This document shows, piece after piece, positions 3,721 to 11,810 of a DNA stretch of 32,490 nucleotides; positions within the stretch are counted from its first letter, which is position 1, and each line of letters begins with the position of its first letter. Where the stretch lies: positions 1 through 32,490 of the IMG/VR virus record IMGVR_UViG_3300038825_001207. The stretch is one strand, 5' to 3'. Origin of the DNA: a virus. The translations under genes were made by a program, and so were the position numbers. Under the pieces are notes generated by a model, which made no database searches, was not told the origin of the DNA, and worked only from the letters and a program-made list of their open reading frames with translations.

Positions 3721-3746
3721 TACTGTTCCTGTTTATCTAATAATTG
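3717..3746 (-). repeat. Repeated gene-boundary sequence, family C, copy 1
   Basis: This 30-base segment matches the one at 4746-4775 at 29 of 30 positions. On the minus strand it holds the AACAGGA ribosome-binding region and ends in the ATG of the Ref-like gene. Its upstream half encodes the last codons and stop of the C5 methyltransferase (Ile-Ile-Arg-stop), a different reading from the other copy. Confidence 0.85.
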
Positions 3747-4749
3747 ATTTAAAAATATGTTTGATAACTTCCATCGTAAAACCATTACCTGCCATCTTGT
3801 ATAATTGCGTGTTACTAATACCAGCGCTTAATAGTGTATCGATATGATGCTCTGGTACCGTTTGAAGCCTGAAACATTCTCGCGGTGTTAGTTTTCTATA
3901 GCTTTCCTTTCGCACTATTAAATTGTCTTTTTGTACTGTTGTAAGTGCCCCTGTCTTTTCATCGCCTCTAATCTCGATACGCTGCTGTGCTTTTAAGTCT
4001 GGGTTGTAGTCGTCACGCTTACCAGTTTCAGGGTTTATTTTACGACCTATCATTGAGCCGCACCTTATATAATCGCCCTGCCTGCCATTCTTTACGTACT
4101 CCATTGCTGAAAGATTAACGGCTTTGCCATTTAAATCGTCACGCGAACATTTCCTGCCTTTCTGGCGGTTAACAAACTTATCACTCATTAACGTATACTC
4201 TCCATTTTGCTCAATAATATCTTTTAATAGAATGCCTTTATCTTCTGGTTGCTCAACTGGAAAACTAGTCCAGTAATATCTATTTCGATTCTGAGCCGAT
4301 ACCAAAGCACTATTAATCAAAACCTTGTGTACATGTCCTAAAGCGTTTTCGGTGTGAGTTGTAATATATTCCTCAAACTCTTTCTTCATCTTCACATTTT
4401 CAATTAAGAAATTAGCTTTAGGGTTGTGGTATTTAACGTGCTTCATAATATCTAGCATCGTCCAGAATAGCATTCCTCGCTCGTCTTTATCGCCTAATTG
4501 CTTGCCAGCCATTGACCATGCTTGACAAGGGAAGCCGCCAGTAACTAAATCAATGCTTGCCCAATCAATATCCCATTCTCGCCAGTTAGTAACATCGCCT
4601 AACTGAATTGTATCAGGGAATAAAGCTTGCGTTGCCTGGTTAGCGTATTTATCAATTTCACTTGAGTAATACTTATTAACTTCAATGTCTAGCGCTTCTA
4701 ACGCCATTTTTCCAAAACTCATCCCGTTGAATAAACTTAATACGTCCAT
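3733..4749 (-). CDS. dcm: C5-cytosine DNA methyltransferase, Dnmt3-like phage type
   Basis: This 338-residue enzyme transfers a methyl group from S-adenosylmethionine to cytosine C5. Motif I is LSLFNGMSFGKMAL (residues 4-17), motif IV is GGFPCQAWS with catalytic Cys75, motif VI is the ENV at 117-119, motif VIII is QNRNRYYW from residue 153, and motifs IX-X are RKLTPRECFRLQ and KMAGNGFTMEV near the C-terminus. The acidic SAM-binding segment YYSSEIDKYA and the compact size recall Dnmt3-like phage methylases. The region at about 170-280 should recognise the target, which cannot be predicted. No partner restriction enzyme is adjacent, so protection of phage DNA is the likely role. It starts in a TAATG overlap with ninB. 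Confidence 0.93.
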   Translation of the reverse strand: MDVLSLFNGMSFGKMALEALDIEVNKYYSSEIDKYANQATQALFPDTIQLGDVTNWREWDIDWASIDLVTGGFPCQAWSMAGKQLGDKDERGMLFWTMLDIMKHVKYHNPKANFLIENVKMKKEFEEYITTHTENALGHVHKVLINSALVSAQNRNRYYWTSFPVEQPEDKGILLKDIIEQNGEYTLMSDKFVNRQKGRKCSRDDLNGKAVNLSAMEYVKNGRQGDYIRCGSMIGRKINPETGKRDDYNPDLKAQQRIEIRGDEKTGALTTVQKDNLIVRKESYRKLTPRECFRLQTVPEHHIDTLLSAGISNTQLYKMAGNGFTMEVIKHIFKSIIR

Positions 4750-5673: not shown

Positions 5674-5691
5674 TCTCTTATCCTTATTGCT
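5670..5691 (-). repeat. Repeated gene-boundary sequence, family B, copy 2
   Basis: These 22 bases are identical to 6220-6241. On the minus strand they hold AGCAATAAGGATAAGAG followed by an ATG. Here they overlap the 3' end of the adenine methyltransferase gene, whose last codons and TAA (Glu-Gln-stop) lie in the repeat. A diverged third copy lies before the gene starting at 5476. Confidence 0.85.
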
Positions 5692-6223
5692 CTAATGTTT
5701 TGCGGTCAACCATAGTTATTTGGCAAGGTGTTTCACAGTTTCCGCGCCATATAATCAAGCATTGACCTTTAGGGTTTCCGCTTGCTTTATTACCATTTGG
5801 TTTTACAAAGCTAACACGTCCAGTTAATAGCCTAATTTCATTCGCTGACTTAGCTGCATCTGCAAACCATTTAGTGTCAGTATTTGCATTAACAAGCGCT
5901 ACAATAGTTAAGTTATGTTTCTTTGCTTGTTCTGCTGATCTCTGCATGAATAATTCAGTTTGTGAGTAAGGCGGATTTATAAAAGCAGCTTCAAAGCAAT
6001 TAAGCTCAACATTTAAAGCTGAGTGATCTTCTGTATACCAGTTTTCACACAAAGTGTTTTCGTCACTGGCGCAAACATCTAAATCAAAATCAAATTCCTG
6101 ATCAAGCGCATCAAACAAAGCTTTTGGCGTTTGCCACAAGTCTTTTTCGCTTGTTGGTGTATTAGTTTTATTTACAAAGTGATCTTGCTTCAATTCAACT
6201 TCTATCTCTGATAATTCACCCAT
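5684..6223 (-). CDS. dam: Phage N6-adenine DNA methyltransferase (Dam type)
   Basis: This 179-residue protein belongs to the short phage Dam family that methylates adenine N6. Markers are EKDLWQTPKALFDALDQEF (residues 26-44), the acidic block FDLDVCASDENTLC, and the catalytic AAFINPPYSQTELF with NPPY at 83-86. A strand VSFVKPNGNKASGNPKGQ follows and is typical of these enzymes. The N-terminal 20 residues are extra and probably disordered. Like the C5 methylase in the same operon it has no restriction partner, so a role against host restriction or in marking phage DNA is most likely. The recognition site cannot be read from the sequence. Confidence 0.92.
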   Translation of the reverse strand: MGELSEIEVELKQDHFVNKTNTPTSEKDLWQTPKALFDALDQEFDFDLDVCASDENTLCENWYTEDHSALNVELNCFEAAFINPPYSQTELFMQRSAEQAKKHNLTIVALVNANTDTKWFADAAKSANEIRLLTGRVSFVKPNGNKASGNPKGQCLIIWRGNCETPCQITMVDRKTLEQ

Positions 6224-6294: not shown

Positions 6295-6447
6295 TTATAT
6301 AAATACATCTTTGATATAAAGATCTTGCCCTTCACCATACAGGCACTTATTTGCGACTATAAAGTCATAGGCTGCACGTCTAGAAGTAAAATCATCAAGG
6401 ATATATTCGCCATCTTCAGCGGTTAACACTACCTGGTAAGTCATCAT
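6295..6447 (-). CDS. 50-aa protein, first gene of the minus early operon
   Basis: A short frame starts at ATG with AGAGAGAAT just upstream and encodes 50 residues (MMTYQVVLTAEDGEYILDDF at the start, ending DLYIKDVFI). The composition is balanced and acidic, with an alpha/beta pattern and an aromatic core, as in real small phage early proteins. It is the first gene after the strong leftward promoter, with a leader of about 30 bases. Phage first-transcribed small proteins often act against host functions, but nothing in this sequence shows a target. A second ATG directly follows the first, so either could start it. Confidence 0.6.
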   Translation of the reverse strand: MMTYQVVLTAEDGEYILDDFTSRRAAYDFIVANKCLYGEGQDLYIKDVFI

Positions 6448-6483
6448 AATTATTCTCTCTGTTGTTTGCGTTTTGATGTAGCA

Positions 6484-6511
6484 ACTTTAGCACAATGGTT
6501 TAATGTGTCAA
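6484..6511 (-). promoter_or_regulatory. Leftward sigma-70-type promoter
   Basis: Reading the minus strand there is a perfect TTGACA, a 16-base spacer, and TGC-TAAAGT, that is an extended -10. Transcription would begin near 6477 and run into the methylation and recombination operon. The site lies within 20 bases of an imperfect palindrome that could hold a repressor. Confidence 0.7.
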
Positions 6512-6525
6512 CTACATTTGTGAAT

Positions 6526-6547
6526 ATATTTGTGCGTACATAAATAT
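6526..6547. promoter_or_regulatory. Operator-like imperfect palindrome
   Basis: A 22-base element is symmetric at 16 of 22 positions, with ATATTT and AAATAT arms and a TG/CA inner pair. It lies between the leftward promoter and the putative rightward promoter. It is well placed for a small dimeric regulator, and the ribbon-helix-helix-like protein encoded next to it is the obvious candidate. Confidence 0.45.
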
Positions 6548-6558
6548 ACATTAAAGTG

Positions 6559-6586
6559 TTTACATGCAATTGTAGGTATGTAATAC
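6559..6586 (+). promoter_or_regulatory. Possible rightward early promoter
   Basis: TTTACA is followed after 16 bases by TAATAC, upstream of the small regulator gene. Each hexamer differs from consensus, so the promoter is weaker on paper than its leftward partner. It would serve the replication module. Its position opposite the strong leftward promoter around one palindrome suggests shared control. Confidence 0.4.
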
Positions 6587-6619
6587 TTCGGTTGTCTTTT
6601 ACAAATGGAGAATAAATAT

Positions 6620-6817
6620 ATGAAGGTTTTACCAGTTAAGTTTAGTGATACGCAGACATTGAAGATTAAAGATGTGGTTGAAGTTGTTGGCACTGATGCA
6701 AGCAAGGTAGCTAGAGCAGCTATGCGATTAGGTTTGAATCAAATACAAGCTATGGCATCAAGAGACTTAGATAAAGCTAAAGACTTGGTTCTTATTAATG
6801 ATGCTAGATCTAAATAA
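6620..6817 (+). CDS. Small ribbon-helix-helix-like regulator
   Basis: The 65-residue product starts MKVLPVKFSD, a beta-strand opening usual for ribbon-helix-helix proteins, and continues with two helices (KIKDVVEVV, and SKVARAAMRLGLNQIQAM). Proteins of this form bind operators as dimers with the strand in the major groove. An ATG fifteen bases upstream is in frame, but its GGAG is better used as the ribosome-binding site for the start chosen here. As the first rightward gene beside an imperfect palindrome, it may repress one or both divergent promoters. The fold is inferred from pattern only. Confidence 0.65.
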   Translation: MKVLPVKFSDTQTLKIKDVVEVVGTDASKVARAAMRLGLNQIQAMASRDLDKAKDLVLINDARSK

Positions 6818-6822
6818 CAAGC

Positions 6823-6850
6823 AAAAAAAATGCGCCCGTCCAAAAGCGCA
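6823..6850 (-). terminator. Leftward intrinsic terminator
   Basis: On the minus strand TGCGC and GCGCA form a stem around a ten-base loop, directly followed by eight U residues. In the plus direction no U-run follows, so it ends only leftward transcripts. No annotated minus-strand gene lies to its right, which points to a short antisense transcript. Confidence 0.6.
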
Positions 6851-6865
6851 AATTCATCAAGCAAC
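6823..6865 (-). ncRNA. Predicted oop-like antisense RNA of about 43 nt
   Basis: An extended -10 promoter on the minus strand is followed after about 40 bases by an intrinsic terminator, with no room for a protein gene. The predicted transcript is antisense to the leader between the regulator gene and the replication initiator gene. Lambda has a similar arrangement, where the short oop RNA is made leftward just upstream of gene O. The RNA itself is an inference from promoter plus terminator, and its small size makes it tentative. Confidence 0.4.
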
Positions 6866-6871
6866 AAGGTA

Positions 6872-6880
6872 ATTATAGCA
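6872..6880 (-). promoter_or_regulatory. Leftward extended -10 promoter
   Basis: The minus strand reads TGC-TATAAT, a perfect extended -10 hexamer. The -35 region is weak (TTTTAT at 17 bases), which extended -10 promoters tolerate. It overlaps the start codon region of the replication initiator gene. The same bases form the spacer between that gene's ribosome-binding site and ATG, so chance is possible. Confidence 0.45.
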
Positions 6881-7581
6881 TGAGTTCAGGTTGGATAAAA
6901 CTTCACCGACAACTCCTTGAATGGGAGTGGTACAACGACATTAACGCCACTAGGTTATTTTTACACCTGATGTTAAAAGCTAACCACAAAGATAAAAAGT
7001 ATCGTGGGACAGTGATTAAAAGAGGGCAATTATTAACAGGTAGAGAGCTACTTTCTGCTGAAACTGGCTTGTCACAACAACAAATTAGAACGTGTTTGAA
7101 TAAGCTAAAATCAACCAGCGACATAACCATCAAATCAACCAACAAAGGAACGCTGTTAACGGTTGAAAACTATGGAGTTTATCAAGATGCTGAAAGCGAG
7201 TTAACCAGCAAATCAACCAGCGAGTTAACCAGTAAGCAACCAATGAATAACCAGCAAGCAACCACTAACAAGAATGTAAGAACTAAAGAATGTAAGAATA
7301 AAGATATATGTCAGCAGGTAGCTGACGCATGGAATAACTCTTTTTCTGATTTGCCAAATGTATTAAAAGTTAGTGACAAAAGAAAGGCTCACATAAAAGC
7401 AGCTATAAAGTTTTTCAGTGGTAAACATGACTTGAACGATCCTGAACAATGGTCGTCTATATTTGAATACGCTAGCAATAGTGATTTTTTAATGGGTAGG
7501 GCTAGCGATTGGTCAATGGATTTTGATTTTATTATAAACAAAAATAACTTATTGAAAGTTTTAGAGGGTAAGTATGAATAA
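6880..7581 (+). CDS. Replication initiator, lambda-O/DnaD-like
   Basis: This 233-residue protein probably binds the phage origin and loads the helicase encoded next. The N-terminal region (GWIKLHRQLLEWEWYNDINA, then IKRGQLLTGRELLSAETGLS) is the winged-helix module common to phage initiators, with a recognition helix near residues 65-80. A Ser/Thr/Asn/Gln-rich linker spans about 105-135. The C-terminal part (VADAWNNSFSDLPNV, FLMGRASDWSMDFDFII) resembles DnaD or helicase-loader domains, in which the Trp and the GR-x-SDW motif are typical. The gene overlaps dnaB by eight bases. The linker-coding DNA carries an iteron-like repeat array, as in lambda O. Confidence 0.8.
   Translation: MSSGWIKLHRQLLEWEWYNDINATRLFLHLMLKANHKDKKYRGTVIKRGQLLTGRELLSAETGLSQQQIRTCLNKLKSTSDITIKSTNKGTLLTVENYGVYQDAESELTSKSTSELTSKQPMNNQQATTNKNVRTKECKNKDICQQVADAWNNSFSDLPNVLKVSDKRKAHIKAAIKFFSGKHDLNDPEQWSSIFEYASNSDFLMGRASDWSMDFDFIINKNNLLKVLEGKYE
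7111..7298 (+). repeat. Iteron-like repeats, candidate origin of replication
   Basis: The core AACC, usually in TCAACCAGC or TTAACCAGC, occurs at 7113, 7125 and 7137 (12-base steps), and again at 7203, 7215, 7227, 7238, 7249 and 7260 (steps of 12, 12, 11, 11, 11). The 11-base steps move the core through all three codon positions of the initiator gene, so protein repetition alone does not explain it. Right after it lies an A+T-rich stretch with a perfect 12-base repeat (AGAATGTAAGAA at 7271 and 7287), which could be the unwinding element. The layout matches the lambda-type origin inside gene O. Confidence 0.55.
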
Positions 7582-8968
7582 CATTCCTAATTCACCAGAA
7601 GCCGAACAAGATGTAATTGGTGCGTTACTTAAAGATTCACAAAAGCAAGAATGCAGAGAGCTACTTGATAACTTGTCAGGTACAGACTTTTATAGCTCAT
7701 CACATGGATATATTTTTGACTGTATTAAAAACATGGTTGAAGAGAAAAAAGCGGTTAGTTTGATCACTGTTAGTGAGCAACTAGAAAAGCGTGATCAGCT
7801 TGAATATTGTGGCGGCTTTATCTACTTGGCTGAAATGCAGAAAAATTTTATTTCATTTACTGCTTTACCTGGTAGCGTTCGAATAATTCAAGAGCTTAAA
7901 GAGTCGCGTGATTTATTACTTCTTGGCGAAAACATCAAAGAAGCTGTTGAAAGCAAAATGTGCAACAGTGAAATACTCTCTAATGTTGGTGACAGCTTAA
8001 AAAACATTAGCACCAATTTAAGCGGAAGAGAGCTTGAACACATAAAGGAATCAACTGACGGTTGGTTTGATTTGCTGGAAAGGCGTGAACAAGCTGGCGG
8101 TGGTATAGTTGGAGTATCAACAGGCTTCGAGCAATTAGATCAAGCTTTAGGTGGTTTTGATGAAGAATCCTTAATTGTTGTTGGTGGCGCTCCGTCTATG
8201 GGTAAAACGTTATTTACTCAAGCGCTATCTATAAACGTTGGTGTTGATCAAAAGCAAAATACAATGTTTTTTAGTATGGAAATGTCAGAGCGCCAATTAT
8301 ACGAGCGTTTTATTTCTGGCTTGTCTAATGTCGCCCCTAGCGTTTTAAGGTTAGCTAGATTTACAAAAGAGCAGTTAGGCAGGATTGAATCAGCAGTGAC
8401 CACACTAGATAGAAGTAAAATATATCAAACTGACGAGCAAGGACTTTCAATATCGCAAATTAGGTCAAAGGTTAGGCGACATAAAGAAAAGTATGGCGAT
8501 CTAAAAATGATTGTTATTGATTACCTTGGACTAATGAAGCTAGACAAAGCTGACAGGCATGACATTGCAGTTGGTAACGCAACAAGAGGGCTAAAAGAGC
8601 TAGCAAAAGAAGTTAAAACGCCAATTGTTTTAATTGCTCAAGCCAACAGAACAACATCAAGACCAAATATGCGAAGCTTAAAAGATTCTAGCTGTATTGA
8701 AGCTGATGCTGATGTGGTTATGTTTGTTCATAGACACGAGATACTAGAGCCAGAAACTGAATTAAAGGGCGTGACTGAGCTTATAATTGCAAAAGACAGA
8801 CACAATGATGGTAACGGTACTATTTACATGGAAAAGGTAAATGGCGGCTTTAAAGAGCTTTCTGTTGAACAAGCGGCAATGATGGTTCAGCGAGAAGAAA
8901 ACAGGCTAAACCCACCAAAAGTAAAAGAAGAAAAAGCGAAAGGTTATAAAAGAATAACCAATAAATAA
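7574..8968 (+). CDS. dnaB: Replicative DNA helicase, DnaB type
   Basis: The 464-residue protein is a hexameric 5'-3' replicative helicase. The N-terminal domain begins with the family signature SPEAEQDVIGALL (residues 7-19). The RecA-like domain has Walker A GGAPSMGKT (204-212), the helicase motif FFSMEMSERQL (232-242), Walker B MIVIDYLGLM (312-321), and the later IVLIAQANRTTSRPNM and DADVVMFVHR blocks. Length agrees with the family. It is translated from an ATG inside the end of the initiator gene and so is probably coupled to it. It would recruit host primase and polymerase III, as no phage polymerase is encoded. Confidence 0.96.
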   Translation: MNNIPNSPEAEQDVIGALLKDSQKQECRELLDNLSGTDFYSSSHGYIFDCIKNMVEEKKAVSLITVSEQLEKRDQLEYCGGFIYLAEMQKNFISFTALPGSVRIIQELKESRDLLLLGENIKEAVESKMCNSEILSNVGDSLKNISTNLSGRELEHIKESTDGWFDLLERREQAGGGIVGVSTGFEQLDQALGGFDEESLIVVGGAPSMGKTLFTQALSINVGVDQKQNTMFFSMEMSERQLYERFISGLSNVAPSVLRLARFTKEQLGRIESAVTTLDRSKIYQTDEQGLSISQIRSKVRRHKEKYGDLKMIVIDYLGLMKLDKADRHDIAVGNATRGLKELAKEVKTPIVLIAQANRTTSRPNMRSLKDSSCIEADADVVMFVHRHEILEPETELKGVTELIIAKDRHNDGNGTIYMEKVNGGFKELSVEQAAMMVQREENRLNPPKVKEEKAKGYKRITNK

Positions 8969-10768: not shown

Positions 10769-11317
10769 ATGGAAAAGTCAGAATCAATTAAAAGCCTAGC
10801 TATTGCGATGTGTAAAGCCCAGAGTGAAATGGGTGGAGCACACAAGGGCGCTAACAATCCTTTTTTTAAGAGTAAGTACGCAGACCTGAAGGAGGTTGTT
10901 AAGGCTGTTAAAGAACCTTTTGCTAAAAATGGCCTTAGCTATGTTCAGTTCCCTATAAATGACGGTGAAAAGATAGGTGTTGAGACCATATTGATGCATG
11001 AGTCTGGCGAATGGCTTTTGCAAAGGTTTACTGTCAAGGCTAGCAAGCAAGATGCTCAAGGTGCTGGGTCTGTTATAACTTATTGCAGACGTTACGGGTT
11101 ACAGGCTATTGCTGGTATACCAAGCGAAGATGATGATGGTAATGCCGCTTCAAATAAAAAACCGAAAGAATACACTGCCAACCAGTTTAGCACCGAAAAA
11201 GAATCTATAACAACAGCGATACGTGGTGGCATGCCCGCCAACGGTGTAATAAAAACATTAGAAGATCAAGGTTTCACTATAAGCGAAGCCATACGTCTAG
11301 AGATAGAATCAATTTAA
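10769..11317 (+). CDS. erf: ERF-family single-strand annealing recombinase
   Basis: The 182-residue product belongs to the ERF family (P22 Erf), which forms rings on single-stranded DNA and anneals complementary strands. The family core is visible: KGANNPFFKSKYADLKEVV (residues 26-44), VETILMHESGEWL, and the hallmark GSVITYCRRYGLQAIAGI (about 99-116), then acidic SEDDDGNAA. The C-terminal 60 residues (NQFSTEKESITTAIRGGM) form a separate small domain. An SSB gene follows directly, the usual pairing. The phage lacks a recognisable exonuclease beside it, so annealing may use host-resected or replication-fork single strands. Confidence 0.92.
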   Translation: MEKSESIKSLAIAMCKAQSEMGGAHKGANNPFFKSKYADLKEVVKAVKEPFAKNGLSYVQFPINDGEKIGVETILMHESGEWLLQRFTVKASKQDAQGAGSVITYCRRYGLQAIAGIPSEDDDGNAASNKKPKEYTANQFSTEKESITTAIRGGMPANGVIKTLEDQGFTISEAIRLEIESI

Positions 11318-11342: not shown

Positions 11343-11810
11343 ATGCATATAGTACATGGCGAACTAAGAAAAGCACCATACATTAAAGCAGGGTGTGGCC
11401 AAGACGGTCAATCAACAATGTTTATCATTGAATTATCAGAAATGATAAAAGACCGCCAAACAGGTGAGAAGTTATACACTAATTACAGCGCGGCAATTTT
11501 TGCCAAGTCACCAGCTCAAATTGATTACTACAACACATCATTAGTTGAGGGTAATTTTGTTGTTGTTAACTGTGAAAAGCTAAAGGTAGATGTTAGCGAA
11601 AGCAACGGTAAGCAATATATTAAGTTGCAAATGGAAAACGCAAGGTTAGAGGGTGCTAAGTACATTGAAAGTAATCAAGGGCAGCAGCAAGGATTTCAGC
11701 AGCAAGCACCACAGCAAAACCAAGGCGGCTTTGTTAATCAAGGTCAGCAGCAAAATCAAGGTGGATTCCAGCAAGCACCAGCGCAAGGTGGATGGCCTCA
11801 CGGTCAATAA
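11343..11810 (+). CDS. ssb: Single-stranded DNA-binding protein
   Basis: The 155-residue product has a predicted OB-fold of about 105 residues (HIVHGELRKAPYIKAGCG, SAAIFAKSPAQIDYYN, FVVVNCEKLKVDVSESNG), then a Gln/Gly-rich tail (QGQQQGFQQQAPQQNQGG). It starts right behind AAGGAAAGAA, downstream of erf. It should coat single-stranded DNA in replication and annealing. Unlike bacterial SSB the C-terminus ends WPHGQ, with no acidic DDDIPF-like tip for binding partners. The tail-coding DNA is itself repetitive (CAGCAGCAAGCACCA-like units). Confidence 0.85.
   Translation: MHIVHGELRKAPYIKAGCGQDGQSTMFIIELSEMIKDRQTGEKLYTNYSAAIFAKSPAQIDYYNTSLVEGNFVVVNCEKLKVDVSESNGKQYIKLQMENARLEGAKYIESNQGQQQGFQQQAPQQNQGGFVNQGQQQNQGGFQQAPAQGGWPHGQ

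Follow-up and report, generated by a model that had tools for sequence, protein, structure and literature searches.

Origins of replication located inside a gene are already known in lambda and the Stx phages (PMC7466680), in the plasmid pSK41 (PMC5703833) and in P1 (PMC9948254). In lambda gene O and the Stx origins, iterons lying in the middle of the gene are recognized by the encoded protein and an A+T-rich region is found alongside (PMC7466680). In the RepA_N origin of pSK41, the Rep boxes are central in rep, the N-terminal domain that binds them is a winged helix, and the linker encoded by the origin is dispensable (PMC5703833). P1 oriL lies within repL and, according to the abstract of that study, replication is impaired when its A+T-rich region is changed synonymously (PMC9948254). 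In addition, six imprecise 11-bp repeats of phage L have been named as its likely origin (PMC8022706).

We analysed a window (the whole stretch of DNA under study, a virus record of 32,490 bases and possibly a fragment) in which an initiator gene carries iterons with an AACC core. These iterons are nearer to the arrangements of phage L, HK620, Sf6 and pSK41 than to that of lambda. As in Salmonella phage L gene 18 and the O-type genes of HK620 and Sf6 (PMC8022706; AF335538; NC_005344), an O-like initiator gene is followed by a gene for a DnaB-type helicase and short iterons lie in the middle of the initiator gene; the arrays of these phages were recovered in the present analysis. Unlike in the window, their cores are TGTCCAACGGA and TTACCAGCAA, the array is split by a spacer, and the ACTAACAAGAATG block was not seen in them, a different A+T-rich stretch following the array. 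HK620, Sf6 and L carry a rep_origin annotation at the corresponding place in the gene, these annotations being predictions.

The preliminary description had called the region a lambda-type intragenic origin. An intragenic origin is still the best reading, at the level of prediction, but the comparison with lambda does not extend to the iterons: those of lambda are longer and palindromic, whereas those of the window are 11-bp, non-palindromic and spaced at about one per helical turn. Four palindromic iterons of roughly 20 bp, as in lambda and the Stx phages (PMC7466680), were not found in the window. Moreover, the partner gene encodes a DnaB helicase, whereas lambda P is a loader. The N-terminal domain scores Z 9.4-9.6 against 4pt7 and 4pql, which have a similar fold, and CAP-type winged helices score the same. 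The replicon of pSK41 is that of a plasmid and not a phage, and the initiator of the window has no Pfam RepA_N match, its sole Pfam match being to DUF4423 (E 0.06, below the cut-off). P1 has a different initiator, and the abstract describing its oriL mentions no comparable iteron ladder (PMC9948254).

The initiator gene and its array

The features discussed below are as follows.

6880-7581, + strand: O-like/DnaD-like replication initiator gene, 233 aa (PHROG 2514, PHROG 345)
6880-7188, + strand: N-terminal winged-helix DNA-binding domain, residues 1-103 (AlphaFold2 model, fold matches)
7042-7044, + strand: Arg55 codon; the residue would specify C at the fourth core base (residue-core correlation)
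7078-7080, + strand: Gln67 codon; the residue lies in the recognition helix and would specify AA at core bases 1-2 (residue-core correlation, held-out test)
7113-7140, + strand: three upstream AACC iteron cores (7113, 7125, 7137) within wing-coding DNA (class switching in relatives)
7189-7299, + strand: disordered linker, residues 104-140, coinciding with the array and the block (AlphaFold2 pLDDT < 50)
7201-7263, + strand: main iteron array of six AACC cores (7203, 7215, 7227, 7238, 7249, 7260; steps 12, 12, 11, 11, 11)
7264-7301, + strand: conserved A+T-rich block ACTAACAAGAATGTAAGAACTAAAGAATGTAAGAA..., proposed DNA-unwinding element (identity, codon choice, instability)
7306-7578, + strand: C-terminal domain, residues 143-233, apparently exchanged independently of the N-terminal domain (match ranges of relatives)
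7574-8968, + strand: adjacent DnaB-type replicative helicase gene (Pfam DnaB_C E 2.5e-63; DnaB N-terminal domain E 6.6e-22; PHROG 19)

The initiator matches PHROG 345 (replication initiation O-like; E 1.6e-31, residues 4-232) and PHROG 2514 (DnaD-like; E 1.2e-31, residues 2-180). Its N-terminal domain is modelled by AlphaFold2 with a pLDDT of about 90 over most of its length, and resembles, among many winged helices, the CAP DNA-binding domain and CAP-DNA complexes as well as the initiators 4pt7, 4pql and 5kbj (Z 8.4-9.9). Relatives in sequence that have a solved structure are limited to weak winged-helix matches, namely the FadR-family 8pqm (E 0.027) and CodY. The linker is of low complexity and rich in Thr, Asn and Gln. 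The C-terminal domain is 57% identical to that of the relative L009, whose N-terminal half is unrelated; two other relatives, L004 and L005, have the N-terminal half in common and different C-terminal halves. Elsewhere in the window, two genes on the - strand, opposite to the replication genes, match DNA methyltransferases (3733-4749 and 5684-6223; PHROGs 116 and 111), 10769-11317 encodes an ERF-type single-strand annealing protein (Pfam ERF E 3.7e-27), and the gene after it, at 11343-11810, has a PHROG match to single-strand DNA-binding proteins.

All nine AACC cores of the preliminary description, with the six-core chain from 7203 to 7260, were found where it had placed them, and there is an isolated tenth copy in the gene at 6982. 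Read from the sequence, the iteron units are 11-12 bp long and non-palindromic. The use of all three reading frames, which had been claimed for the repeats as a whole, holds for the six-core array, whereas the upstream trio has 12-base steps and keeps to a single frame. Likewise, the gap between the cores at 7137 and 7203 is indeed 66 bases here, but a spacing of six helical turns was rejected as a general rule, because other distances are seen in relatives (mostly 123, 135, 147 or 156 between the wing site and the last core, which is not a constant multiple of 11).

Apart from the six-core array, the 32-kb window contains no AACC chain of at least three copies on either strand, and no 4-mer or 5-mer forms an equally long chain with 11/12 steps elsewhere in it. 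A chain of six AACC arose in 2 of 20,000 synonymous-codon shuffles of the gene (P = 1e-4) and in none of 20,000 codon-order shuffles of the linker; no 4-mer at all reached a chain of six in 1,500 synonymous shuffles. The array of the window is weaker than that of many relatives: its lag-11 signal taken alone gives P 0.11 against synonymous shuffles, and its best four-copy array was equalled or beaten by 2 of 40 such shuffles.

The A+T-rich block and the predicted origin

A near-invariant block, ACTAACAAGAATGnnAAGAATG, adjoins the array, and its codon choice is fixed. The perfect 12-base repeat reported here previously is in fact a perfect 13-mer, AAGAATGTAAGAA, at 7270-7282 and 7286-7298. By blastn, positions 7260-7301 are identical at 41 of 42 bases to initiator genes of Listeria phages whose proteins are only about 36-40% identical to the initiator, in its N-terminal part. 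A strict 29-base pattern of the block fell in the linker of a homologous initiator in all of 24 IMG/VR contigs and, in those with upstream sequence, was preceded by repeats whose core differed between groups. With a looser pattern, at least 120 viral matches were obtained. Among the matches listed, 118 were in the same frame, an in-frame initiator signature lay upstream in 103 of the 112 that were testable, and an 11-bp array was present by a simple criterion in 88 of 116, against none at control offsets. As this set was found through the block, it tests the link between block and array and not the frequency of the block.

The codon choice was followed in 66 relatives picked by a protein motif that includes Asn and Lys, so that the residues, but not their codons, are partly selected. 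The block Asn is AAC in 64/64 and the later Asn AAT in 60/60, while the two codons are about evenly used elsewhere in the same genes; the Lys is AAG in 64/64, against about 30% AAG elsewhere. The block is less stable than 98.6% of the 45-bp windows in the 32-kb window, although other stretches of the initiator gene are less stable still (94th percentile within the gene).

The conservation of the block could also come from exchange and not from melting, if the block were a recombination junction between N-terminal and C-terminal modules. Homology does stop at the block: in L004-L008 the match is confined to residues 1-130 and in L009 to residues 141-233, and to judge from these ranges the halves of the initiator are exchanged as modules at this place. 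However, exchange alone does not readily keep both the sequence and the codon choice across phyla, nor a fixed distance from the block to the last iteron, and we consider it improbable as the whole explanation; the block may serve as junction and melting site together. Its presence across phyla needs explaining in any case, either as an intrinsic melting signal or as a single-strand site for the helicase or for the C-terminal domain of the initiator.

Direct repeats in the middle of an initiator gene and an adjoining A+T-rich region (7264-7301) are both present, and we consider it very probable, from the sequence evidence, that the region is a replication origin of the phage inside its own initiator gene, bound by the winged helix of the encoded protein. 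Each 11-12-bp iteron would be bound by an N-terminal winged helix, with about one site in every helical turn, and over 7201-7263 the initiators would line up in a row on the same face of the DNA, the cores at 7113-7137 being auxiliary sites. The A+T-rich block abutting this row would then melt, and the C-terminal domain would recruit the phage DnaB helicase encoded by the neighbouring gene onto the opened strand, where replication would start. The protein would pay little price for carrying the array, because the DNA of the array encodes a disordered linker. The cumulative GC skew has its minimum at 6459, about 0.75 kb away, a position confounded by the change in gene orientation that shortly precedes the initiator gene. 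With the consensus used, neither DnaA boxes nor an IHF site were found near the array (6400-8200). Plasmid records carrying the initiator module were also found; they were rejected as proof of autonomous replication, their gene content looking like that of prophages or phage-plasmids.

Arrays of initiator-binding sites often regulate as well as initiate. The sites could thus serve autoregulation or copy control, through a roadblock or handcuffing, with the origin elsewhere, and binding sites by themselves could have such another role. This is nevertheless quite unlikely: the array is fixed to a conserved A+T-rich block, the helicase gene is adjacent, and the mid-gene arrays of lambda and pSK41 are origins (PMC7466680, PMC5703833).

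Core sequence and initiator residues in relatives

Relatives of the initiator were gathered mainly by protein, most of them by the N-terminal domain alone and hence independently of the linker. Loci with the strict block pattern and four phage records were also taken in, and the set was reduced to 119 nonredundant genes. The relatives range over Bacteroidota, Gammaproteobacteria, Bacilli, Clostridia, Campylobacterales, Planctomycetes and others, and in many phyla they carry arrays of 11-bp iterons in the same disordered linker, with 12-bp steps at the upstream end. The core varies among phages (AACC, AACA, GACC, GACA, GGCA and others), and within one gene it is the same in the three frames.

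Mutual information picked residue 67 for position 1 of the core and residue 55 for position 4. In the AlphaFold2 model, residue 55 is at the start of a helix and residue 67 is near the start of the recognition helix (66-78); residues 66 and 67 would correspond to the base-reading positions 180 and 181 of CAP. A rule was fixed beforehand, in which Gln, Arg or Lys at residue 67 gives AAC, GAC or GGC, and Arg at residue 55 gives C, any other residue A. This rule was right for 60 of the 68 genes of the training set and exactly right for 16 of 18 fresh nonredundant held-out genes (shuffled mean 6.4, maximum 13). The searches for held-out genes were seeded with Arg and Lys members, which affects the genes sampled but not the scoring. 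Both held-out misses, as well as the three training genes with AACC but no Arg55, have Arg66. With Arg66 added post hoc, all 40 genes that have Arg at 55 or 66 show C as the fourth core base, and none of the 50 other genes does. Residue 67 agrees with core bases 1-2 in 81 of 83 genes (Gln with AA in 58/58, Arg with GA in 17/17, Lys with GG in 6/8). The rule also fits the cultured phages Cellulophaga phi18:3 and Vibrio 1.135, which lie outside the set and combine Lys67 with GGCA arrays. In two near-identical pairs (L202/L360, 91/97; L258/L286, 90/97), Arg or Gln at 67 or its counterpart goes with G or A in the iterons. The core thus appears to follow the DNA-binding residues of the initiator and, in relatives, is predictable from three amino acids. 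The code was examined in genes with the standard block (80 of the 119 and 19 held-out genes); Ser, Thr, Met and His at residue 67 lie outside it. Among initiators with Ser67, L404 and L002 (Vibrio phages 1.157 and 1.116), L114 and L240 have arrays that mix GACA-type with CGCA/AGCA-type cores. The pair L221/L222 has ATTCC-type iterons, with a core unlike the rest (TCCG vs TCCC).

Many of these genes are related, and the correlation could reflect phylogenetic hitch-hiking and not recognition. On a tree built without the columns of the recognition residues, independent pairs were counted on supported branches; only 9 and 6 were strictly independent and well supported. At position 1, about 9/9 pairs went as predicted (or eight with one neutral; 8.7 on average, the rest being neutral; p 0.004), and at position 4, 6/6 did (p 0.03). 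Moreover, Gln, Arg and Lys at residue 67 are present in two divergent sublineages, all five genes with C at position 4 but no Arg55 have Arg66, and the rule holds in held-out genes. We therefore regard hitch-hiking as very unlikely.

Maintenance of the repeats at the DNA level

Over the 119 relatives, the linker DNA shows an autocorrelation peak at lag 11, where its value is 0.681 and that of synonymous shuffles 0.520, and a second peak above the shuffles at lag 22. In 88 of the 119 genes, none of 40 synonymous shuffles comes up to the best four-copy array, and 82 of these 88 use all three frames; the steps within the best four-copy arrays are 226 of 11 and 38 of 12. An exact copy of the four bases preceding the block occurs at -11, -22 and -33 in 67, 68 and 60 of 80 genes. 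Compared with cores permuted between genes, their concerted change gives z 14-15 at these three offsets, the only other notable positive offsets being -44/-45, i.e. the next copy (z 7.4/6.9). As -11, -22 and -33 lie in three frames, the amino acids changed differ between copies; in one example, the linker peptide goes from EQPTSNQQVTT to ERPTNDQQTTT as the core changes.

At the first two wing-coding cores, the sequence (AACC/AACC, AACA/AACA or GACC/GACC) goes with the class of the array in that gene, with a full match at both sites in 27 of 34 genes, and it switches with the class at synonymous sites. The upstream cores therefore belong to the same system, as first supposed, although the third site (7137) was found only in some relatives. 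The proposal that the repeats are held at the DNA level thus passed on the autocorrelation, the concerted change in three frames and the synonymous sites alike, and the opposite case, in which relatives would keep the linker and lose the cores, came out reversed: they keep the spacing and change the peptide. Repeats held at the protein level are ruled out by the 11-bp period, the synonymous shuffles and the three-frame change of the core. That the repeats are a mere by-product of a low-complexity Thr/Asn/Gln-rich linker, with no role in the DNA, has a negligible probability: the linker is disordered and compositionally biased, but the 11-bp signal is no multiple of 3 and is abolished by synonymous shuffles, the core changes together in all three frames, and the synonymous sites of the wing-coding cores switch with the class.

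Intragenic origins were already known and 11-bp iterons had been proposed for phage L, whereas the family-wide code and the conserved block appear to be new: no account of either was found in the literature searched, most subscription journals being outside it, so that an earlier description is possible. One stretch of DNA here meets two codes, the sites stepping through three frames while the disordered linker absorbs the changes in the protein. We think it likely that a very widespread class of phage initiators carries self-encoded origins, in which the iteron sequence, read through a simple three-residue code, changes together with the DNA-binding domain, while phages of different phyla retain ACTAACAAGAATGnnAAGAATG as a shared melting block. 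This gives phage initiators a recognition code that can be put to the test and marks where origins probably lie in many uncultured phages. If it is true, sequence alone would be enough to find origins and to predict origin-incompatibility groups.
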